Notes: generated by a model not told the origin, from the letters alone. 64,000 nucleotides of DNA from Thermoplasmatota archaeon (GCA_023379385.1 JAMCUS010000028.1:41207-105206); one strand, 5' to 3'. Positions 3,910 to 53,266 are shown, numbered from the stretch's first letter. Translations and numbers: made by a program.

Positions 3910-4000
3910 GGGTCTGTAGCTCAGCTAGGTAGAGCAATCGGCTCTTAACACCTAAAAGAGAGATACCGAAAGGTCAGGGGTTCGAATCCCCTCAGGCCCG
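3910..4000 (+). tRNA. tRNA-Lys (anticodon CTT) with ~17-nt intron at canonical 37/38 position
   Basis: Acceptor GGGTCTG/CAGGCCC, D-arm GCTC...GAGC, ATCGG-CTCTTA [intron ACACCTAAAAGAGAGAT] A-CCGA, T-arm AGGGG-TTCGAAT-CCCCT; CCA not encoded. Confidence 0.9.
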
Positions 4001-4098
4001 CTAAAATTTATAAAATACTGTCTAAAAAGAAAGATTAAAGATATAGCGTTGTATCACGTGTTATGTATAAATGGGGGATCTAAATAAGGATAGTATAC

Positions 4099-8862: not shown

Positions 8863-9752
8863 AGGATTCCAAACTATCTAATTACAACAATATCTATTCT
8901 CAAGAGAGTTGATTTAGCCTTCAATAAATTCTTTGTTAATCTTAAATCAAACGGTAGAACTAAGACTGGATACCCGCGTTATAAATCATACGGGCAATAC
9001 AGATCTTTAACCTACACGCAATCGTGATTTAAAATAAATAATAATAAATTGATAAATTGTCTATCTCTAAAATAGTCCTGATCAAAATAATTCTGCATAG
9101 AGAATTAATCGGTAATATTAAAACATGCACTGTTAAAAGAGATAAAGCAGGCTCCTGATTCGTTTATTTTACATGCGAATTACCAGGTACAGATAAGAAA
9201 CCGTTAGAACAGATTAAAGAACAGGATATAATCGGTGTGGATGTAGGCATAAACAAATTAGCGGCCTTATCTAACGGCGTAGAGATAAAGAATCCAGAGA
9301 TATTAAGGAAATCCTAGGAATCCATTAAAATAACGCAGCGTGAACTGAGTAAGATGATGAAAGGCAGTAAGAACAGATTGAATGCAAAACAACGTATGGC
9401 TAAGAGGCAGAGGAAATCAGCAAATGAGAGAAAGGATAACCTGCACAAAGTAGCCAATGAAATAGTAAAAAATATGGTTCAGAATCATAATCTTGCGAAG
9501 AGCATAAATGATGCGTCCTGGAGTAAACTCGTAAACAGCTGTATTTACAGAGCCATTGATGTTGGTAAATACATAGAATTCGTGGATCCGAACGGTACAG
9601 GTCAGTTATGCTCACGTTGTGGAGCAGTCGTAAAGAAGAATCTGTCCGTAAGAATCCACAGTTGTAATAACTGTGGATTGGAAATGGATAGAGATCTTAA
9701 CGCTGCTCTGAACATAAGAGGGGGTACATACGGACTGTGTGGAACTCTGTAA
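8863..9752 (+). pseudogene. tnpB: Decayed TnpB (IS200/IS605 OrfB)
   Basis: Fragments: IPNYLITTISILKRVDLAFNKFFVNLKSNGRTKTGYPRYKSYGQYRSLTY*; IIGVDVGINKLAALSNGVEIKNPEILRKS*; then the 132-aa ORF with LCSRCGAVVKKNLSVRIHSCNNCGLEMDRDLNAALNIRG; multiple internal stops. Confidence 0.9.
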
Positions 9753-15928: not shown

Positions 15929-17067
15929 CTACCACACCACGAAGGATTGTAGCTTGTTGCCGGTCTCCACCATACCCGTAGGCATGGTTTCATTGAACCG
16001 CAACGATTGGCTGGTTGACAACAGCCTGAAGTACTCAGATTTACCGAGTACCTCAATGTTTCTTGATGCATTGAGGTCTGCATGAAGCTCGAATCCACAC
16101 TTCAGGCAATGGAATATTGTTCCTATCAACGAATCCACATTTTGAGCATTTCTGTGTTGTGTATTTGGGATTCACATATACAACCTATTTGTTCATTTCC
16201 TGCTCCTTGTATTCAATAAACTGCTCTAACTGTTGTGGAGACCATAAACCAAGTTTATGGCTAAATCTTCTTCCATTGCCCCTCTTCCTCATTTCTGCCA
16301 TCCCAGGTCTTCAAATGCAACTACGTTAAACGGATGATTTACTATCTGCTTTGAAATCACATGGTTTGTATTCTGCACTAACCGTCTCTATCTTCCGCTC
16401 AATTCCCTCAATTTACGACGGGCGTACCGAGTGCCTGCATGCTGTAATTTCTTTTTATTGTACTGGTATCCCCCTTTTACACTTCTCAATGGTTTTGAAT
16501 TAAAAAACCTATTATTTGATAATACTGTTGCATTCTTTATTCCTCTATCTATTCCTACCACTTTTACATTTTCGTCTATCTTTTTTCAACCTCCTTATCT
16601 GGCAATTCTACCTGTATCATTATAAACATTTTCCCATGCATTTTATCAATGAATACCTGTCCATTGGCATATTCTCCTCTATATTTCTCAATTACTGGTG
16701 TGTGTGCAACGGGGAATACCAGCCCGCCACTGACAATTGTCAACGATACTGTGTGGGAATCGGGATAGAACTTAAACGTTCTCCTACCATATCTAATAGT
16801 GAGGGATCTCTTCTGTATTTCCCTTTCAAGTTTGGTCTGTTTTAATGATTCAGATGCAGTATCCCTGGCTGTTCGGACAAGTGCAGAAGGCAGAGTAGGT
16901 ATTGCCTTCCTAATATCTTTACATGTTGCTCTGTTAAGCTTATTCTTATTGATTGTATGTACAGGGAATCCATAATCTAGAAACATCTGGCACGCTTCTT
17001 TGAATTTCTCACCCGTTTCCAGAAGTACCTTATCGTAGGGAAGTTTTAATTTAATGGTTACAAACAT
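15929..17067 (-). pseudogene. tnpB: Decayed TnpB (IS605 OrfB-type), split into several frames
   Basis: N-part MFVTIKLKLPYDKVLLETGEKFKEACQMFLDYGFPVHTINKNKLNRATCKDIRKAIPTLPSALVRTARDTASESL...; C-part KCGFELHADLNASRNIEVLGKSEYFRLL; intermediate pieces in shifted frames. Confidence 0.88.
15970..15987. repeat. Hairpin CCATACC-CGTA-GGCATGG in the TnpB terminal region
   Basis: 7-bp stem with one G:T-type mismatch, between the decayed TnpB C-terminus and the DRG gene. Confidence 0.6.
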
Positions 17068-30393: not shown

Positions 30394-30930
30394 CTATATA
30401 GCATGGACAAAGGTTTCATAGGTAATGTATCCATTTACACTCATTTCTACCCTCTCTATAACCAGAATAACACCGGATATGACTGTGACATTGTTGTATT
30501 CTGAATCCATATTTTTTAATACTGAAGAATTAGCAGATACAAGACCGGAACCCAGTAGCGATAGATTCCACGGATGTATTTGGTTTGAGAGTGGATAATA
30601 TGCATTTTCACCCTGCCACGTAAGTATGACCGACTTATTCTGGATGGTTATTGTATAATGAGAGGATACCATTATAAATGGAAGGGTAAATTTCGTGATT
30701 GTTTTGGGTATTACAAGACCCCTTTGTGATGATGTATAAACAATATATTCAGTATAATTTGATTGCATGGTAGAAATGGAATTGATAGTTTGTCCAATAC
30801 TGGTAGCTGTCTGAACAAGCACGGAATTACTTTCGTTATTGTATATCAATACATATACACCCATAACGGATACTATTAACACAATCACGGTTATAGCTAT
30901 CCATACCTTTGATAATATCCAGTCAATCAT
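30394..30930 (-). CDS. Single-TM secreted protein of giant-surface-protein cluster
   Basis: N-terminal TM WIAITVIVLIVSVMGVYVLIY, extracellular domain with many N-x-S/T sites; co-directional with the cluster. Confidence 0.7.
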   Translation of the reverse strand: MIDWILSKVWIAITVIVLIVSVMGVYVLIYNNESNSVLVQTATSIGQTINSISTMQSNYTEYIVYTSSQRGLVIPKTITKFTLPFIMVSSHYTITIQNKSVILTWQGENAYYPLSNQIHPWNLSLLGSGLVSANSSVLKNMDSEYNNVTVISGVILVIERVEMSVNGYITYETFVHAI

Positions 30931-30942
30931 ATATACACCTCT

Positions 30943-31524
30943 CTAAACTGTTGTTGGCCACACGTATAGCCATATATAACCCTCACCACCATTAACATAT
31001 ACAAGATCAAAGGAAGCTGTTTTTGTATTTGGCAGTTGTGTATAGCTGGTTATATGTGTGGCAGAATCGGTAAAAAATAAAGATGCTTTAGGGCTGGTTG
31101 CCGACGGGTAGTATGCATACATGGCGTAATGATATGGGGGTACAAGACCTAAATTGAAATATCTGTGTATAATGCCGGATATATTTGCCAACCCAGATGG
31201 TGATATGCCCATCATACTGAGATTTAAGTACTCACCAATCATGTACTGTATGGTGAAGGTTCCGTTGATATATATCTGTGTACCACCATTAATATAATGT
31301 GTTGAATTTACAGTACTCTGAAGTACTGAACTCAGGAATCTGTTTGTATATTGCTGCTGATAGTAAAAATTCACGGATGGTGAGACTCTGAGAAAAAAAG
31401 AGGTAAAGGTTACAAGTATTACAGAGGCTATCAGCATCAGCATGAAGAATATAACAGAGTCTATAAGAGCAGTCTGCCCATGTTTCTTTATGAATCTATA
31501 CCTGGGATGATGTCTGCCATACAT
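30943..31524 (-). CDS. Pseudopilin-like protein of giant-surface-protein cluster
   Basis: KKHG-QTALIDSVIFFMLMLIASVILVTF prepilin-like N-terminus; overlaps upstream gene by 29 bp. Confidence 0.7.
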   Translation of the reverse strand: MYGRHHPRYRFIKKHGQTALIDSVIFFMLMLIASVILVTFTSFFLRVSPSVNFYYQQQYTNRFLSSVLQSTVNSTHYINGGTQIYINGTFTIQYMIGEYLNLSMMGISPSGLANISGIIHRYFNLGLVPPYHYAMYAYYPSATSPKASLFFTDSATHITSYTQLPNTKTASFDLVYVNGGEGYIWLYVWPTTV

Positions 31525-32011
31525 AAATTTCCATAACCCCTACGTCAATTACATTATTCTTTATCTGTATATCTACAGGTGTTGTAAGCGTTACAACTGT
31601 TATAAGATTATTGGTGTATGTCAATTTGTCTCCGAAAGTCCATGAAACATTTGTTACCTTATCCGTAATATTTATAAAAAAGTTGCCGGGTGGTTGAAGA
31701 TCCTTTGTAATTACCTCCGTACTATAGACATTATTTTCAAAGGATACTAACTTGGACATATTGAATTCTCCGGATATCAACGAGCCATTATAGGTTCCAT
31801 TCACTACTAGTAAATCGTATGTTCTAACGCTGCTTTCAAAATTATTGGCTGCATTGAGAAGATTGTTATACTTTTGGAAGGATATGTACACAGATAACGT
31901 ATGAATCATTGCAATCATGAAAATTGTGATGGATACAATAACAATAACTGCAGTCGGTAATTCTTCAAAAAAACCTGTAACGCCATGCTTTCTCTTTCTC
32001 CTTTTTATCAT
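31496..32011 (-). CDS. Pseudopilin-like protein of giant-surface-protein cluster
   Basis: RKRKHG-VTGFFEELPTAVIVIVSITIFMIAMI N-terminus. Confidence 0.7.
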   Translation of the reverse strand: MIKRRKRKHGVTGFFEELPTAVIVIVSITIFMIAMIHTLSVYISFQKYNNLLNAANNFESSVRTYDLLVVNGTYNGSLISGEFNMSKLVSFENNVYSTEVITKDLQPPGNFFINITDKVTNVSWTFGDKLTYTNNLITVVTLTTPVDIQIKNNVIDVGVMEIYVWQTSSQV

Positions 32012-32084
32012 AAAATCACTTTAACCAAAAATAGATAATAAATATGTATAAAAAAGGTTATGGATGTTAAAATTTTTGCTGTTT

Positions 32085-35000
32085 TCAGTACTGTGTCCAT
32101 GCATATGGACTGTTTGGAGTGTACTGCCATTTGACCAACCATGGGGGTACAGTTCCGTATAGGCCACCACTGTTATCACCTGAGTAGTAGTTTACAAATA
32201 GCGTATAGTGCATTGCGCTGGGCGGGTTGTATGGGTTTATATCCTTGTAGGTATCTATGGACATATTGCCGAATGCCACGTACTTGAAGTAGCTATTATA
32301 AAAGCCTGTAGAGTAGTTACCGCTCATGTTAATTTCGTATGATATGTATATCATCGGTGGCTGTACCGGTTTCTGCTGATAGCTGTACGGTATCTGGTAT
32401 GCATCTGCCGGTATCGTTACGTTGCCAGGCAGTGATGTGGCGTTTATCACCGTTACATACTTGCCATTGACCAGTGCCGTATAATTGAAGTGCGCACCTG
32501 TTGTATTGAATACACCTGTGTAGTTTATTAAGGTAATGTTCGCTTTGGTGTATGGATCGTAGTACATTACCGATATTTTATCCGACTGCTTGTAGCCATA
32601 TGTGGTATAAGGTATATAACTTGGTGTTACGTACGGTGTTATCATATCATCTACACTGAAGGTATAGTTGATATTTACATCCACACCAATACTTACTGTA
32701 CTTGTAGAGTTAAAGAAGTTGGATGAGCTGAACGGATATAGCGTAACTGTCTTTACATTGGGCACCGTCAGTATTGCACTTGCCGGTTCAGGTGAGTTCC
32801 ACGATACCACATACTGGCCAGGTGTAAGGTATATATAAAATGGCAGCTGCTGTACGTTCTGGGCAGTCATTGTCACCACGCCATTTGACGCATAGCCGTT
32901 GTACCCCTTACTGTAGTTATGGAGGTAATAGAATCCAGCACCTGTAGTAGATTTAACTGTCAATTGAACTGAAGTTAACTGTGGAGCGATGTATACAGGC
33001 AGCATACCCATGCCCTCTGTATAGTTACTGCTGTTTCCAAAGTTCTGCACATATGATAACCTTGCCTTTGCTCTGACCAGCATGGAGTTCCAGTGTGATA
33101 AGTCATTTCCAGCTACATTCAGTTCCTTGGCCCATGTTGTTAATCCATGATTCTTGGTTGCTATCACGTTGCCAGCACCATTTGGACCCGTATTGATTAT
33201 GAAGTTTACGGAGATGTTCTTTGCAATAGACATATTCATGTTGTTAAGGAAGTTTGCCACATCGTTTGTATTTTCCTTCAGGAATGGGTCAGATGGTATT
33301 GGTGTAAAGAAGGAGGCAGCAGACCCGCTAGCCGTCAGGTAATCCTTTGAATTCGCCAGTGATTTGGCAACATAGTTAGTACTGTTTGTAGAGTTGGCAA
33401 TTAGATATATATTGCCCGCATACTGATGCGTATAGGTCTTGGTACACGAACTTATCAATCCACTGCTGTGTACTGTTACGTAGTCCTGGAAGCCATATGA
33501 GACCTTACCGAAAAACTCAGAGGTTATTGCAGAGTTTCTGGATTCCAGATCCAGAGCGGATTCCCAGAAATTCATCACACTCCACTTGGTGGACTGTGCA
33601 TACACTGCGTAGGAGAACAGGGTATAGCTGTAATCCTGCTGCCACATCGAGGTGTGGTTATACTGGTATGCAACGGTAGGACTCAGGGTAAACGTTGCAA
33701 CGTTGGACATTGTGAACATTTCAGCTGCTGCCTGCGCAGAACTCTCAAACATCGCTGCCGGTGGCTGACCGTTTATACCTGCATCGATGTAGAGAGTCTT
33801 CTGCAGTACAGAACTGATCTCTTGCTGTAGATTGACTATTGCCGAACTGCCTATGGATGGCGATGGATCACTGCAGTCACCGAACAGCATATCAATAAAC
33901 TGCTGTGGATCAAGTATGATCCATATAACAAGCACTGCTACACCCACCCATAACAATACTGTGGACAGTGTGGCAAGTACCGATGCAATTGCCGATAAGG
34001 TAGCGCTGCTACCAAACAGAGCCGTAAACATTGTGGATGTCAGCAATGTACTTATAGCGCCGAAGGCACCACTCAACGCAAAGTACCACATAGCCGAGTT
34101 AAGGTTAAACCCTAAGAATAACTGATATAATGCCTCACCTACATTTCCATGATCAATAGCCAGTTGCTGCTGGAACATTTCTATGACCGTTGCCACAGAC
34201 GCTACCACATCCGCAATCTGTGCCACATCTGCAGCTACCTTCTCCATTACCTGTACGGCGTCAGAGAGTTCACCGCTCAATACCTTCAAATTGAGGAAGT
34301 TAGCTATCTCCTCAAGGAATTTAGCATCCTGTATCATCACATCCAGTGTGTTCTTTATCAGGGTAAGAACCTGTGTCGGGTTGGTCCAGTTGGTGAAACT
34401 CTTCCATGATTCTATCAAATTGAGCGTTGCTGTATAGGCAGACAACCCATCCTGAACTATATTTATAACCTGTATAACGTTTGACAGATAGGTCTGTATG
34501 AAGTTGTGAATATCGCTCCACCATGAGGTAGGCAGTATTGAGAATACACCGTTACCGCTATTTTTCATGAAGTACATGGCGATATTATTGACTAAATTCA
34601 CCACGTCCCTTGCCTTGAACATTAACTGATAGATCTCGGGCAAATTGCCGTAGTTCTTGAAAATACCTATGAAACTCTGTACCTGCGTAAACCAGTAAGT
34701 AGCACTCTTCATGACCATTGATGCAAAGCTACCTATAGACTCATTCGGATAGAAATATTCTCTTGCAAGATATAGACCACCAACTATAGCTGCGGCTCCA
34801 AGGAGAACAGCACCTGTTCCGTATTTCGCAGACAGCATCTTGTAAAGCGATATTCCCTGCTCAATATCTGTTTGATACTGCTTTATAAGACCTAAATAAG
34901 ACGTCCAGCTATCATTTCTTGCAAACAGATATTTAGCTACAACCAGCGCTGCAAATCCGATGTATTCGTTAATTCCTACCTGTCTGAAATCGCTTTCCAG

Positions 35001-38000
35001 AGTGGATAATGGCCCAAGTATATTGTTATTAAGATTGGACAGATACTGCGTCCAGCTCTCATTTGCATCAAACACGAATTTGGCTATTACTAAAGCACCC
35101 AGTCCTACCAGGCCATTGATTCCAAGATTCTCCAGTTCACCCTTTATAGCTGCCAGATTGGATAACACAGACGTAGCACTGTTCAGATACTGCGTCCATG
35201 TCTCATTGGCTCCGAATATAAACTTACCCAGTACAACTGCCGCCAGTCCCCAAGTATCAGGAACACCCAGACTGCTCAAGCTGTTCATCATACTGTTGAT
35301 ATCGTTTAATCCCTGGTTGGTTATCCATGAAAAGTATCCAGCCCATGAAGCATCAGGCATAAGTACGAATTTGCCCAGTAGCACTGCTGCAAATCCAACA
35401 ATTCTGTTGATACCCCAGTGCTCGAACTGTGCGTTCAACTTCATTATTCCAGGCATCCAGAAGGTTGTAACGTTCTGGGTAAAGTTGAACCACGAAATAT
35501 CAGATGCCAGTGTAAATTTGGCCAGTATCAGTATACCGAATCCCCATACATTGCTTATACCCAGTGTTTTGAAATCATTTTCCAGGGTCAGTACGTTCTT
35601 CAACATACCATTGAGACCAGTTAAATATTCAGACCATCCACTGTTAGGTGCCAGAACAAACTTGCCAATGATAACAGCTGCCGCAGCCACCCATATATTG
35701 GTAACGCCCAGCTGTCCCAGTTCCGTTTTTATTTGGCTTATAGTCCCGAGCAGACCATTTGCTTCATTCAGGTAAGTGAGCCATGATACATTCTGGGCAA
35801 ACATAAATTTATACAGGGCTACTGCTGCCAGTCCTACTATAGAGTTTACACCTATATTGTTCAAATCACCGATTATACCCTTTATTGGTGTGGCATATGC
35901 GGATAAGGTCGTTATGTACTGCGCCCAGCTCATATTCGCTGCAAAGGCAAACTTGCCTATCAGTACAGCTGCAAAAGCGGCGAGGTTACTCACGCCAAGT
36001 TCATTTAACGTTGACACAATATTCTCTGTCTGTGTATAATAGAACGCAACATTACCCGGTAGAACCTTCAACAGGAATGTCTGTACCGGTATGGATTGTC
36101 CACCTGCGTACAGATCCAGCGCAAAGGCATCCATACCTATCACACTATCAGGAATACCGATGTTATTCAGGACAGGTATTATCTGTGCTATGATGTTCTT
36201 CCACGTAGTTACGTTGTGAGCCATCGAATACCCTATACTGGTGATTGAATCATTTTCATAATTCATTATCCAGTTAATGGTAAATGCCATTGGTGATAGC
36301 GATGAACCGTACAGGTTCTCCATTTGAGTTGTGTGATTGTTGATCCAATCAGACATCTGCTGGAACATGTAAGTGTATTGTGGCAGTACGTTTAATGTAC
36401 CGCTGACGGAGGTTATTAATCCACCCGGTCCTGCAAATCCCTCCATGTATGCCAGTCCAATATCAACTGATTCTGTATTAGGATAGTATACAGGCACATT
36501 TTCAAATGTAAAGTTGAGATCGTTAAGAACTATTGGTACTCCTGACTGTCCCTCTTTATGTAATATTGTTATCATGCCCTGTGCTATCTGAGACCATGTC
36601 GCAACAGAGGCATATATTCCCTGAGTCATAGAATAGCTCTGGAAATCCAGCTCAAATGAGGTGGATAGTGCATTCTTATTGATGTATTGTTCAAATCCAG
36701 TTGCCCATGTAACATAGGAAGAGAGGGTATTGTTCATCTGTGTATAATTGGTATTGTTATTGAAGGAGAATCCCACCATTCCAGGTGGGAATGGATAACC
36801 TAACAGGGTAGCGTAGAACTGCGATAGCTTGGATAACCACATATCTCTGGGCACATTCTGCAGGTAACTCATATCCAGAGTCCATAATGTTTCCGTATTT
36901 ATTCCCTCCGTAGTATTGATGTATAAATTGGTGAAGCCATCTGCAGTAACATTTACATAACCCTTACCTTCCTCCATTGCACCATTTGGATATTTTATTG
37001 TCACCGCTATGAGATTGGATCCCTGACCAAGGTTATAGAGTGTTATTGGCTGTGACGCAGAAAAGATGCCTTCTTCCATATTGTTTACAGATACGCTAAG
37101 GTAGGTCTGATTGTTGAACAGATTCTGTGCTATCCCTGTACTGTTGTGTATAGTTATATGTACTGTTTCATACGGATCAAGTATCCCTGCAAACAGTGTA
37201 GTGAATATTGATGGATTGTGAATGCTTGGATACTGTGTAATCTGCGAATTCAACGCTCCTGATACAGCATTGGCTGATGATGCCCATACTCTTGTTAACC
37301 CCTTTATGTTGTAGTTAGAACCATACGACGCACCATTCAGCTGATTCAGTTCATTGACTTTTATATTGAATGAAAAGTTATAGAAGTTAATATCATACAC
37401 GTACGCACCTTCAGTGGGAGCAGCACCAGTACTACCGCTGCTACCTCCGCCACCTCTGCTGCCTCCTCCTGTTATCACTCCGTTGCCAAGCCCGCCACTG
37501 CTTGCATAATAACTTGCTGGATTTGTGTATGGCGCAGAATAGACATTCTTATCCACTCTTACATTGAAGTTGGATAGTAAAAATGACGTAGCAACATTGT
37601 AACTTCTTGTAGTGGTTTGCAGATTAACCTGCTGACCATTGAAAACAAACGGTACATTGAAATACTCCAGATTCAGGAAGTATTGATCATATGGCACAAG
37701 TTTCTGGAGAGACGGGTTTGTAGCACCGTTTACAGCTTTATATATTTCTACAGGATTTATGTGAGATCTGGCTGCAGTGCTTAAACTGTTTAAATAATTA
37801 TTCAGTGCACTATCACTTGATGTCCTGTACAACGCCGCCTCATCCAGATATACAGCAAACTCCAGTGCATTCATAACTTCACTTTCTGATGGAGCTACGC
37901 CAGGGTTTGCCATCATTTCACTCTGCAGTATGGCATGGGCTATTGCCATACCCATTCCCTGTTCAGTAAAATCAAAATTAACTCTGTTAGCAGAGGTCAT

Positions 38001-38609
38001 TAAAAATGCTATGGTTGTTGGTACCACCTGGTCTATTGATATCGTTGTATCCATTTTTTGACCGGTTGTGGGATTCAATATCGTTACTGGAACAGTACCT
38101 GTCACCCTTATATATGTAGGTGTCGTCATGGAGGTAGCCATACCCAACGAATTTACACCAGTATATTCAAATGGCACAGCACTGGTATTGAGTGAAACGC
38201 TACCTGGATAACCGCGTATTGTAACAACATACTGGCCCACAGTGGCACCCTGCCCTGCAACGCCATTTTGCCCCATACCGAAGTTGGTTGACAAAGATGA
38301 GAGAAAATTCTCATACGTTAATCTGTTTATGGTGAAGAGGGATGAACTATTGGCAAGATCCGATAATGACTGGATTGCTGCCTGAGTAGCAAGCGATGTT
38401 ATGAATGTAGATTCAGTATTCACCATACCTGTAAAACTCAGGGAAGAATTATTATTGTTAGCCTGCCACCAGTGATCCTGCATTGCACCAATGTAAACTA
38501 TGGCGAAGGCAGATAAAATCAGGATTATTACTGCTATCAGCGAAAAGGGTATTGCTCCTTTTCTAACCTTTTTTTTATTTCCTATATTTTCTATACCTTT
38601 TTTATCCAT
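32085..38609 (-). CDS. Giant (2174 aa) surface protein with eight tandem ~48-aa repeats
   Basis: VRKG-AIPFSLIAVIILILSAFAIVYIG N-terminal pilin-like anchor; abundant N-x-S/T; repeat array LxxLGIxxxxGxAAxxxxKFxFAxNxSWxxYL; hydrophobic central region. Confidence 0.9.
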   Translation of the reverse strand: MDKKGIENIGNKKKVRKGAIPFSLIAVIILILSAFAIVYIGAMQDHWWQANNNNSSLSFTGMVNTESTFITSLATQAAIQSLSDLANSSSLFTINRLTYENFLSSLSTNFGMGQNGVAGQGATVGQYVVTIRGYPGSVSLNTSAVPFEYTGVNSLGMATSMTTPTYIRVTGTVPVTILNPTTGQKMDTTISIDQVVPTTIAFLMTSANRVNFDFTEQGMGMAIAHAILQSEMMANPGVAPSESEVMNALEFAVYLDEAALYRTSSDSALNNYLNSLSTAARSHINPVEIYKAVNGATNPSLQKLVPYDQYFLNLEYFNVPFVFNGQQVNLQTTTRSYNVATSFLLSNFNVRVDKNVYSAPYTNPASYYASSGGLGNGVITGGGSRGGGGSSGSTGAAPTEGAYVYDINFYNFSFNIKVNELNQLNGASYGSNYNIKGLTRVWASSANAVSGALNSQITQYPSIHNPSIFTTLFAGILDPYETVHITIHNSTGIAQNLFNNQTYLSVSVNNMEEGIFSASQPITLYNLGQGSNLIAVTIKYPNGAMEEGKGYVNVTADGFTNLYINTTEGINTETLWTLDMSYLQNVPRDMWLSKLSQFYATLLGYPFPPGMVGFSFNNNTNYTQMNNTLSSYVTWATGFEQYINKNALSTSFELDFQSYSMTQGIYASVATWSQIAQGMITILHKEGQSGVPIVLNDLNFTFENVPVYYPNTESVDIGLAYMEGFAGPGGLITSVSGTLNVLPQYTYMFQQMSDWINNHTTQMENLYGSSLSPMAFTINWIMNYENDSITSIGYSMAHNVTTWKNIIAQIIPVLNNIGIPDSVIGMDAFALDLYAGGQSIPVQTFLLKVLPGNVAFYYTQTENIVSTLNELGVSNLAAFAAVLIGKFAFAANMSWAQYITTLSAYATPIKGIIGDLNNIGVNSIVGLAAVALYKFMFAQNVSWLTYLNEANGLLGTISQIKTELGQLGVTNIWVAAAAVIIGKFVLAPNSGWSEYLTGLNGMLKNVLTLENDFKTLGISNVWGFGILILAKFTLASDISWFNFTQNVTTFWMPGIMKLNAQFEHWGINRIVGFAAVLLGKFVLMPDASWAGYFSWITNQGLNDINSMMNSLSSLGVPDTWGLAAVVLGKFIFGANETWTQYLNSATSVLSNLAAIKGELENLGINGLVGLGALVIAKFVFDANESWTQYLSNLNNNILGPLSTLESDFRQVGINEYIGFAALVVAKYLFARNDSWTSYLGLIKQYQTDIEQGISLYKMLSAKYGTGAVLLGAAAIVGGLYLAREYFYPNESIGSFASMVMKSATYWFTQVQSFIGIFKNYGNLPEIYQLMFKARDVVNLVNNIAMYFMKNSGNGVFSILPTSWWSDIHNFIQTYLSNVIQVINIVQDGLSAYTATLNLIESWKSFTNWTNPTQVLTLIKNTLDVMIQDAKFLEEIANFLNLKVLSGELSDAVQVMEKVAADVAQIADVVASVATVIEMFQQQLAIDHGNVGEALYQLFLGFNLNSAMWYFALSGAFGAISTLLTSTMFTALFGSSATLSAIASVLATLSTVLLWVGVAVLVIWIILDPQQFIDMLFGDCSDPSPSIGSSAIVNLQQEISSVLQKTLYIDAGINGQPPAAMFESSAQAAAEMFTMSNVATFTLSPTVAYQYNHTSMWQQDYSYTLFSYAVYAQSTKWSVMNFWESALDLESRNSAITSEFFGKVSYGFQDYVTVHSSGLISSCTKTYTHQYAGNIYLIANSTNSTNYVAKSLANSKDYLTASGSAASFFTPIPSDPFLKENTNDVANFLNNMNMSIAKNISVNFIINTGPNGAGNVIATKNHGLTTWAKELNVAGNDLSHWNSMLVRAKARLSYVQNFGNSSNYTEGMGMLPVYIAPQLTSVQLTVKSTTGAGFYYLHNYSKGYNGYASNGVVTMTAQNVQQLPFYIYLTPGQYVVSWNSPEPASAILTVPNVKTVTLYPFSSSNFFNSTSTVSIGVDVNINYTFSVDDMITPYVTPSYIPYTTYGYKQSDKISVMYYDPYTKANITLINYTGVFNTTGAHFNYTALVNGKYVTVINATSLPGNVTIPADAYQIPYSYQQKPVQPPMIYISYEINMSGNYSTGFYNSYFKYVAFGNMSIDTYKDINPYNPPSAMHYTLFVNYYSGDNSGGLYGTVPPWLVKWQYTPNSPYAWTQY
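34845..36009 (-). repeat. Region encoding eight tandem ~48-aa protein repeats
   Basis: Manual alignment of units from LNELGVSNLAAF to the unit ending TDIEQGISL. Confidence 0.85.
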
Positions 38610-38632
38610 ATTTTCACCTTTTTTTTATCACC

Positions 38633-39154
38633 TTAACTATCCTCAATTATAAAATTAGATGTAATGGTGTTTGATACAACACCAGTATATGATACAGTAA
38701 TTGACAGTGTATAGGTAGACCCATGCCCTGGTATACTGTAGTATTTAACAGTAAAAAGGGCTGCAGGTGCACCACCTAATGATCCTGTACCACTACTCGT
38801 TGGCAATGTTGTTGATGTAGATGTCGTACCTGCCTGCGATGGCCCATATCCACTTATGGTTACAGTAGCACCTACAATGGGTTTACTGTTTGACCCTATC
38901 GCTACCACATACAGTGTAAATGAACCACTTGTACCTGTAAAAGTGTAGGTACTTTCTTGAGACAGACCCCCCGTGGGTGCTGGCGCATAGGTTGTAACCG
39001 TCGATAAATTGGGTTTCTGGAGAGGCAGCATAAAGCCAACCAGAATAGCTATGGCGATAGCTGCAATTATCACTAGTATTATTAAATATAGCGGCATGCC
39101 TTCCAATCCACCTTTCTTCCTGATGCTCAATCCTTTCCTCAACGTTTTATACAT
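38633..39154 (-). CDS. Pilin-like secreted protein with Ig-like domain, first gene of the surface cluster
   Basis: SIRKKG-GLEGMPLYLIILVIIAAIAIAILVGFM prepilin-like signal; beta-rich S/T domain. Confidence 0.7.
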   Translation of the reverse strand: MYKTLRKGLSIRKKGGLEGMPLYLIILVIIAAIAIAILVGFMLPLQKPNLSTVTTYAPAPTGGLSQESTYTFTGTSGSFTLYVVAIGSNSKPIVGATVTISGYGPSQAGTTSTSTTLPTSSGTGSLGGAPAALFTVKYYSIPGHGSTYTLSITVSYTGVVSNTITSNFIIEDS

Positions 39155-48442: not shown

Positions 48443-51400
48443 ATGCGTTGTAATGGTGTATATGGCGAGGGACGTAGAAAGGGGGTTATTCCGTTTTCAC
48501 TTATTGCAGTTACCATGCTTGTTTTATCTTTATTTGCGACTATATACATTTTTAGTATGAACAGAGAATGGAATAAACCTGCAAATGCAAACGTCTCAAA
48601 CATTGATTCTGCTGCATCGTTTCTTAATTAGTATATAAGTTCACTGGCAGAAATGGACGCAATAAATGCAATTCAAACTGATCAAAAATCGCCGTGGTGG
48701 GCAGTTGCATTAACTGCCCATAATTATTTTTTAAATGATCTTAATAATATGGAAGGAACCTATTTTGAATCGGAGTATGTAGTGACATTTACCAATGTCT
48801 CATATACTGTTGGAACAATACCGTTTTATTATAAAAGTGTAAATATATTAGGTAATTCAACCCTTACATCCTCACCTGTATATGCAGAAACATCAGGTAG
48901 TGTATCATATATATTAAAAAATGTAATGACTGGAGAGACTATTGAAGAGACTACAGGAGTATCAATGGTCATACCCAAAACACTACCCTGGTTAATGTAT
49001 CAGGAAGGCAAAATTAGATATGATTTTGCTAACTATGGATTAATGGATAGGATTATAGAGTCATTACTGGAGCAATATTATTATAATTTGAATGGCCCGG
49101 TTATGCCTGATAAACAGATAATTGTTGATACTCTGAACTTTGCAATATATATAAACGATATAATCGTCTACAGAAGTGATCCTAATCCAGTACTCAACAC
49201 GATATTAAGCGGATATGGTGTTTCTTCGCTGAAGCATGTAAATATATATAAACTCTGGAAGATTTGGATGGTGCAGAGTAAATTCATTGTTAATTTTAAT
49301 ACACGATATAATCTCCCATCTAACTATGTACCTACATATTATTTAGATTTATCAAATTTTAATAAACCAATCTATTTCATGAATATACCGCCTTACTCCG
49401 TGGAGGATACCATGAAATCTTTCAGAGTATCAAATGGCGTGTCTATAAATATACAGAAAAATATCGTAATGGAAGCACATAATTTTTCAGATCTTTACTA
49501 TAGTTCAAATAGCCCTAATTATAGATACGGCGCAGAGGTATATGATATATATATTGAAAATGCAAGTGTGAGTTACTTTTCAAGTTCTACAAATTCTAAT
49601 TCTCCGTCTAGCTTCCAGTTCACAATTCCATTGAATTTATCTTTGAGATTATTTAATTATGTTAATAGCAAAATACCGTTGTTAGATTATCGCAACACCA
49701 TTCCAAAAAACAGTTCAGCTGGTTTTGGATTAGAAGATGTTTACCCCAATGGGCATGAGCCTGTAATCTTTCAGGATTACTTCGCTGATTTACTCTTTCA
49801 AACAGGAAATGTTACTCTTTATGTATTTAATAATACAGGCATATCTGCAAATAACCTTCCGTCAAACTGTTTGATAAGCATTATGTTGGATGGTGCACAA
49901 TTGGGTGATTATACGCCAGCCATGTTTGGTAACTATGGTAGTATAACATTTTATAACATACCAGCGGGAGAGCATTCATTCAACATTATTATTAAATATA
50001 CATACAATGTAGTAGAATATGGCAATGTAGAGATATCAATAGGAAATAGAGGTATAAATGTAGTAAATGGTAATTCTGTGTTAAGTGGTACAGATGTTCA
50101 GGGCAACAATTACATGTTAAAAAATAATATTGCACTTACTGTTAATGAAAACAATAATATTGAAATGCCAGTAATTGCCAATTCCACCTCTATAGATATA
50201 GAACCGTTTATTATATTCCAGCAATTAATATTGGTAAATGTACCACGTTCTAAGTGGTTATCAACTTTAATGGGTACATATGCTGCAATATCTGGCTATT
50301 ATGTTCCGTCATATATTTACAATGTTAACTATGGCAATCTAAATGAATTACAGCAGCTTGTTTTATGGTTAAATGGTTTTATTAGATATCTTCATTATTA
50401 TGACATACCTGGTGGTGGAAATGAAATGGCTACCCTGTCTATTTACTATGGTATAATGTCCTCTTTATACATATGGAGTAATCTAATAGATGGTTTGGTT
50501 AAAATAGAACAGTCTCCCACATGGAAAGATACTAATAATTTGCAAATAGAATTTTTTCAAAATGTTTCTATGATGCCTTCTTCTGATAATGGTGGAAGTG
50601 GCGTTGGAAATAGTGGTATTGTAACGATTATAAAATATACATTAAAATTTATAAATGGACCTACTGGCACCACTGCAACTGACGTCCCAGAGGTATCTTT
50701 TGAAGAAAGCTATGATGTAAATGCGAAAGAAATGTCATTAACATTACCGGATGGAGATTCTTTTAATTTTAATGCTGAATCCATAAGCACTCAGGAAACT
50801 TTAACAGATATTGTTCCTGGGGAAGAGGATGGAACATATACGCTGGTAACACATCAAACAACAGTTACAGAAACATCCGTAACAATATCTGTTACAGATA
50901 CTGAAGGAAATTCATATGTAATAAACTATGATTCGGTATCTTATGAATATGAAGAGGCATCTCAGGAATATTATGTTGTCGGGAATATAGACCCCCTAGA
51001 ATTGGCGTTTGTGGCGGTTGGTATAATATCTGCCGGTATAAGTATAATGGAGTTGGATTCTGAGATATATACAGATTTTACACATCCATCATTTATTGCT
51101 ATTAGTATGACGATAGAGAATATTGCTAACGTAGTTGGAGCCAGTATACAGCTTTTTAAGTTTCTTATTCCACGTATTAGTACCCTAACAAACCTTTTTG
51201 AAAGTAGTGCAGATTTGATAGACTCTATTTCATTTATCATTGCAGGTATAGGGGCCGTTGTAGCTGGAGTGATAATAATAGCTCAATTGATTCAATCAAT
51301 AATGAATAAATATAACATCCCATGGTATGATGCATTGGGAATGTTAGCCACAGGTACTGCAGGATTAAAGTACACTCTGGTTTTCTATTTAGCTATAACA

Positions 51401-53266
51401 GTTACCATATTGGGTGCTGTTATGATTGCTGCTACTGCCGTGGCATTGTTAGCAGGTGCTGCAGTTTCCGCTGCAGTACCTATAATTGGGTGGATTGTAG
51501 CAGGTATTTTGGTGGCTATATTCCTGATATTGAATTGGAATGCTGTAGTTAACTTCTTAGAAAATTTACCGTCAGAAATAGTTAATTGGATCGCGGGAGG
51601 TGATAAGGCAATAAGCATATCAGATTCGTCAATACAGACTATGGAAAGTTCTATAACATATACACTGAATCAAACACTAAAACTATCAGCATCTCTTAAT
51701 AGCCAGAATTTATCATTTAGCATATATAATGGGTATAATGGGATGGCGATGGGATTTTATGATTATGAAATATATATGTTTTCTACAGATAAGGGTATAT
51801 CATCTGAAATGAAAAATGTTAGTACATATGAATTTGATGAAGGTTCTGCATATCTCAACACCACTTATGTAAAGTATTCATTACAATGGTCAATAATTAA
51901 TGTATGGCATTCCATAGATGATCTTTTAAATTTAGTAACCACAAGTACTCCAATCTGGGGATGGAAAACAATTTATTTACCGCCATTCTTCATCTATACC
52001 ATTGTAGGTTATTCAACAGGTGAATCGCCGAATTATCTATTTGGAAAAGATAATATGGAGCCATTTACCAATACACATGTTGGAAATGGTTTATACATAT
52101 CCAGTGATTTTAGGCATAATTTCACTGGAAACATATTTGTAACTACTAACAGTTCTACCACCTATAATTATATAAATGGTGTGGTAACGGATCCATATGA
52201 TAGTGAATTCTTCTGGCCGTCATCGTACAGCAGTTACAGTCCACCATTCTCAAACATTAATGACCCGTTCTTTAACGGATATGTGCCGTATCTTATGGCT
52301 GCTACTGGTGATATAGCCAGATTATTGACTACAGTAAATATGACTAACAGTAAGGATCTGTATGTACATTATATAGTAAGTGGAGGGAGTAGTGACAAAA
52401 TTACAACTGTAGGCCTGAACGGATGGCTTACAGCAGTGAATTATACAGGACAGAATCTATCTTTGTGGAATATCAATAATGCTATAGCATCTGCTAAAAT
52501 AAATTATTTAACTGGATTTTATAACGCACTAAACTTTACTGAAAATTACTGGGGTATGGCCGAATTTAATGTAAATGTTAGTATACCATCTGCTACTTTC
52601 ACCATTACTACATCTAATGAAAATGTATTCAAATATTTTTATACAGGTATTAATGATAATTTTCATAACGGAAAAGGGAATAAGTTGATTATAAATTACG
52701 ACCCTTCTATGGGCAATAGAGGTATGCCTTTATTTGTGTATCTAACGCCTGGAAACTATATAATACAATGGACAGATAAATACAATACAAAAGAAAAAAA
52801 GTTGGTTGTATACCCATTCTCATATCCATCATTTTTTGGCAATCTTTCTTTATCTGAAGTCAATATAAATCATATCAATATAAACCCAATATATGGATAT
52901 TATCAGATAGATAATCAGTTTTCATATGAATTCAGTATTCATATAAAGGTAGTAAATAAAACAACTGGTAATATTGTTCAATCATATAATTATAACTCAT
53001 CTACCAATGTAGCCCTGGATACGTCAACAATCCCTATAAATTCCGAATATATAAATAACAATTACAACATAATAATAAATATTTCACTGAATCTCAGTAA
53101 CATAGGTATAAATGAATGGTATCATCAGAGCAATGCTACGTCCCTTGGCACTTTACAATTTCTCAGTGAATTTGGTTTATCACATACCCTAATTTTTATG
53201 ATTTTCAATAAAGCTGAAATTGATAAAAATGGTAATACCTTCTGGGGTGAAATAAAATATAAATAA
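48443..53266 (+). pseudogene. Second giant surface protein (paralogue of 32085-38609, without repeat array), interrupted by a single in-frame TAG at 48629-48631
   Basis: MRCNGVYGEGRRKGVIPFSLIAVTMLVLSLFATIYIF...SAASFLN-TAG-YISSLAEMDAINAI continues in the same frame to 53266; C-terminal half matches the first giant (MPLFVYLTPGNYIIQW vs LPFYIYLTPGQYVVSW). Confidence 0.85.

Follow-up and report, generated by a model that had tools for sequence, protein, structure and literature searches.

A conserved cluster of pilin-like genes with a giant modular subunit as a probable part of an archaeal type IV filament system in Thermoplasmatota

Five adjacent minus-strand genes in a 64,000-nucleotide stretch of DNA from a Thermoplasmatota archaeon (the whole stretch is called the window below) are most likely an ancient set of pilus genes, not described so far, by which a giant protein is displayed at the cell surface. 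We put at about 0.75 the probability that these genes encode the pilins of a distinct type IV filament system of archaea, an extreme modular pilin among them; that they belong to a T4P-type system has strong support. Sequence comparison established directly that the gene families exist, that they cluster together in a conserved manner and that in relatives they are linked to one type of ATPase/TadC pair (C41-type, after the engine on contig C41 of the window genome).

The genes, all called as ORFs, and two further features of the window have the following positions.

38633-39154, minus strand: gene A, 173 aa, pilin-like, signal RKKG followed by GLEGMPLYLII
32085-38609, minus strand: gene B, 2174 aa, giant pilin-like protein, signal RKG followed by AIPFSLIAVIILIL
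31496-32011, minus strand: gene C, 171 aa, pilin-like, signal KHG followed by VTGFFEELPTAVIVIVSI
30943-31524, minus strand: gene D, 193 aa, pilin-like, signal KKHG followed by QTALIDSVIFFMLML
30394-30930, minus strand: gene E, 178 aa, leaderless N-terminal anchor MIDWILSKVWIAIT
34893-36017, minus strand: eight-repeat region of B, repeats of 48-49 aa at about residues 865-1239, recognized by their regular spacing
48443-53266, plus strand: third giant paralogue of about 1607 codons, interrupted by a single in-frame TAG at 48629-48631

The initial annotation had placed five minus-strand ORFs at 30394-39154, one pair of which overlapped by 29 bp, and the ORF listing agreed with this exactly. In transcription order the spacers are 23 bp (A-B) and 73 bp (B-C, where a promoter may lie), followed by the overlap between C and D and 12 bp between D and E. 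The four N-termini that had been quoted as resembling class III signals were also right: in an ad hoc scan (basic residues, K or R near G, A or S, then 18 hydrophobic, uncharged residues) of the 57 non-overlapping ORFs of at least 100 aa in the window, A, B, C and D were the only matches. E failed the scan and carries a plain N-terminal anchor, as had been proposed. Given that an in-frame TAG lies 12 nt upstream of its ATG and that an SD-like GAGGTG also precedes it, this ATG is the only possible start of E, and a leader is absent. No match above cut-off was obtained when the window proteins were searched against Pfam, NCBIfam and PDB sequences, and Pilin_N (PF07790), the mark of archaeal PilA-type pilins, was absent from all five in the Pfam scan. 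Elsewhere in the window, a tRNA called as 'Stop (tta)' at 3910-4001 (plus strand) appears by eye to be an ordinary intron-containing tRNA-Lys(CTT), and fragments resembling TnpB of IS200/IS605 elements are found at 9354-9752 (plus strand) and 16576-17067 (minus strand).

The families of A, C, D and E were built from the neighbours of giant proteins in related genomes, in which gene calls are our own ORFs. For each family a leave-one-out HMM, from which the window sequence was omitted, was searched against the 302 ORFs of the window genome, and in all cases the window protein was the single top match (A, 6 relatives, E = 2e-9, 32 bits; C, E = 8e-25; D, E = 3e-25; E, E = 1.5e-23); these tests are not fully independent, given that the window sequence was among the seeds when members were first recruited. 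At 78-83 bits there is little doubt, from the profiles, about the family membership of C, D and E, while the assignment of A is weaker and appears to be mostly carried by the signal region. The A family is present in the taxonomic families f3, f9 and f20 and lies beside ATPase/TadC genes at four loci (L177, L178, L180 and L183). The C family was found in 86/400 genomes of the class, with one copy in the window genome, and its profile gave a weak match (E = 9e-4) to a type IV pilin of solved structure (8pfb), at the N-terminal helix. Relatives of C match DUF7285 (E = 9.5e-4) and relatives of E match DUF7266, both below cut-off, and the D relative at L138 is DUF7284. The DUF7285 profile itself had no match in 60 class genomes.

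Homologues of all five families were found together repeatedly across the class Thermoplasmata and in many of its families, a far wider conservation of the five-gene neighbourhood than the initial annotation had supposed. In several relatives the genes are joined by an ATPase and a TadC platform, as at the following loci (x, another gene).

L177: A', A, ATPase, TadC, x, C, D, a 778-aa protein, B (2010 aa), E
L176: ATPase, TadC, x, C, D, B (2255 aa), E; A missing, short contig
L178: all five families with ATPase and TadC
L183 (order of the window genome): all five families with ATPase and TadC; B identified from its RSGRLPYSF N-terminus and its size instead of a profile hit
L181 (order of the window genome): three genes side by side, namely an ATPase with 62% identity, TadC and, right after it, E

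Members of the C, D, A and B families also lie beside C41-type ATPases at L166, L168 and L175, in the same order as the window genome, and at L172-L174 in other families. Among the 400 class genomes, 49 of the 106 places with a C gene (in 40 genomes) were within 6.5 kb of a C41-type ATPase. This ATPase was present in 101 of the 108 genomes with B and 78 of the 86 with C, compared to 167/400 overall (Fisher's test, p = 2e-40 and p = 1e-26, respectively, with shared ancestry ignored). As an argument drawn from gene positions, the physical linkage in many families is probably stronger than these p-values. In many methanogen relatives the giant stands alone, apart from C and D (L068, L070-L072, L076-L078).

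No ATPase, TadC or peptidase gene was found among the window ORFs, in agreement with the earlier suggestion of a structural module that is assembled by machinery from genes elsewhere, and such machinery is present in the window genome. The genome consists of 45 contigs, and on a contig other than that of the window lies the C41 engine, with one ATPase (T2SSE, E = 2.8e-19) and one fused TadC (T2SSF, E = 8e-4, below cut-off). A prepilin peptidase on C32 (L154:1456-2346) matches Arc_PepC_II (E = 1.1e-10) and Peptidase_A24 (E = 8.8e-6), and a separate pilin with Pilin_N adjoins it. Given that C41 is on another contig, its pairing with the cluster in the window genome is suggested by the arrangement in relatives.

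B is a very large protein with 44 N-glycosylation sequons, two cysteines only and few charges, a hydrophobic stretch near residues 1530-1567 and repeats spaced by 48, 49, 48, 49, 49, 48 and 49 residues. AlphaFold predicted the repeat region as all helical with low confidence (pLDDT 48, 2 sequences), and the N-domain reached a pLDDT of 39 with 3 sequences only; models of this quality are too poor to confirm a pilin fold, with its long N-terminal helix and beta-rich head. The window genome encodes three paralogues of this kind. One on contig C29 is 42% identical to B and the third copy, at 48443-53266 of the window, which had been overlooked, is more distant; neither has A, C, D or E partners. 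The third giant is open over about 1540 codons except for the TAG at codon 63, which may reflect a recent pseudogene, a sequencing error or a short product. Downstream of the second giant paralogue of the window genome (L017:11539-14934) lies the gene of a secreted protein that carries pro-kumamolisin activation and CarbopepD-like domains.

The giant module is not peculiar to this organism: giants of 900-2255 aa with the same type of N-terminus are present across the phylum. The profile of the B N-domain (A1) matched in 108/400 class genomes, mostly at the N-termini of 1300-2250-aa proteins; homologues at about 33% occur in two genomes of another family in the order, and the equivalent of B in other classes of the phylum is a clear DUF7286. 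No match to the giant was found in phage records, and none to DUF7286 in plasmids (tblastn). The giants of a sister family (f2; L018 and L019) have a C-terminal Amidase_6/NlpC-P60 domain (E = 7e-12 in L018), which is absent from the window B. This domain has a peptidoglycan-type hydrolase fold, and the lineage is not known to have walls of that type.

From these arrangements we infer a scheme in which A, B, C and D would lose their leaders to the prepilin peptidase on C32, after which the C41 ATPase and its fused TadC platform would pull them out of the membrane to build a filament. The small pilin-like subunits, namely A, C, D and E (the last without a leader), would probably make up an initiation or tip complex, and B, with an N-terminal pilin-type helix and a sequon-rich ectodomain of roughly 2,100 residues, would be shown outside as an adhesin or effector. 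An unlikely but more far-reaching version is a phylum-wide T4P-type machine whose organelle is built around a pilin of 100-240 kDa, with the giant as tip or sheath; the product would be a new surface organelle and not a thin adhesive pilus. In this version the ectodomain, with its helical repeats, its hydrophobic, membrane-like stretch and, in the sister genomes, a peptidase/amidase domain, would act on neighbouring cells or membranes.

Whether the engine is C41 or another one can be weighed from the same loci. The window genome also contains a complete engine of a different design, C24, with two ATPases, two TadC genes (a split platform) and a DUF7289-like pilin, similar to the CdiP system of Cuniculiplasma, and it was C24 that was first taken as the partner of the cluster. 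ATPase modules can share pilin sets (PMC4858521), and in f2 genomes a stand-alone 387-aa copy of the B N-domain adjoins, in divergent orientation, a two-ATPase operon of the C24 type (L020:9017-10180, L021:8850-10055). However, in many genomes it is C41-type ATPases to which the families of A, C, D and E are linked, and among the loci examined none had a C24-type ATPase next to C; the linkage favours C41, and we consider service by C24 quite improbable. The same linkage bears on the idea that B is an abundant membrane-anchored glycoprotein of the disordered exterior layer of Thermoplasmatales, a pseudo-S-layer or coat for which the small genes would supply anchors or stators. An S-layer is reported to be absent from the Thermoplasmatales studied, which have a layer of about 20 nm of unknown composition (PMC12448462), and the size of B, its sequons, its few charges and its three paralogues would all suit such a role. 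Linkage to and co-occurrence with one T4P ATPase/TadC are unexpected for a passive coat, though, and argue for pilus-type assembly over a self-assembling coat. In addition, the listed genomes of one genus of the order (g9) gave no B, C or C41-type ATPase in the searches, so B is not a general coat of the order, and we regard this explanation as unlikely.

A short pseudopilus that exports proteins, with the small pilins as a piston like that of type II secretion and B as a cap or scaffold, is likewise given a rather low probability. A set of several small pilins and a large one resembles HIJK, in which K is a bulky cap, the f2 giants end in a hydrolase-type domain and large secreted proteins are often near the loci, but no dedicated substrate family was identified and archaea have no outer membrane to cross. 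Chance grouping of unrelated membrane-anchored proteins, which the lack of any Pfam or NCBIfam family above cut-off might have suggested, has a negligible probability and is already refuted by the neighbourhood data, given that the co-clustering is kept across many families. The reading that we retain is a pilin set that would be assembled by a T4P-type motor, with C41 as the candidate engine.

If this reading is right, one type IV filament motor would connect several archaeal families that are so far uncharacterised (the giants and DUF7284-7286-like proteins) and give them a testable role, and in the wall-less Thermoplasmatales the cluster is a candidate for a role in adhesion or in the unexplained surface layer. 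C41-type ATPases were also seen in class genomes bearing McrA (L174, L068, L070-L072 and L076-L078; G228, G246, G290 and G344), at L174 beside C and D, whereas a 2016 census recorded no secretion ATPase in Methanomassiliicoccus (PMC4858521). A pilus type may thus have been overlooked there.

Among known proteins the nearest likeness is to the uncharacterised archaeal Pfam families DUF7284, DUF7285 and DUF7286, for which no mention of DUF7285-7289 was found in the literature searched. In other classes of the phylum the order A...E-like-C-D-B is repeated, and at L138-L148 the trio C-D-B is kept, with B as DUF7286 (E = 7e-55) and D as DUF7284 (E = 3.5e-8). The E-like proteins of these classes (L144, L147 and L148; weak matches, E = 4e-6 to 7e-4) have an apparent KRG leader that is absent from the Thermoplasmata E family. 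The window proteins fall below the Pfam gathering cut-off, and B, C and D are connected to these families through intermediates only; the window giant is about twice as long as DUF7286 and conserved mainly at its N-terminus. A haloarchaeal T4P locus (ATPase-TadC-DUF7287-7288-7261-7266-7289; L125 and L126) is similar in that small pilin-like genes follow ATPase and TadC and that relatives of E match its DUF7266, but its ATPase is nearer to C24 than to C41 and no giant was present in the stretches read. The CdiP pilus of Cuniculiplasma divulgatum, from the same order, provides a case in which pilin genes may lie far away from the operon for ATPase and platform (PMC12448462), although its two ATPases and split platform resemble C24 of the window genome and not C41. 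Large DUF2341/PilY-like proteins are encoded in the T4P loci of Clade 1 archaea and have been proposed as tip adhesins (PMC4858521), whereas the Pfam scan found no DUF2341 in the window proteins. The best functional analogy, as distinct from homology, is a minor-pilin tip complex with modular pilins, as in Streptococcus sanguinis, in which PilB and PilC carry a large module on a pilin moiety and small minor pilins (the HIJK tip complex) present it at the tip (PMC9934059). PilC, at about 53 kDa, is far smaller than B with its 2174 residues.
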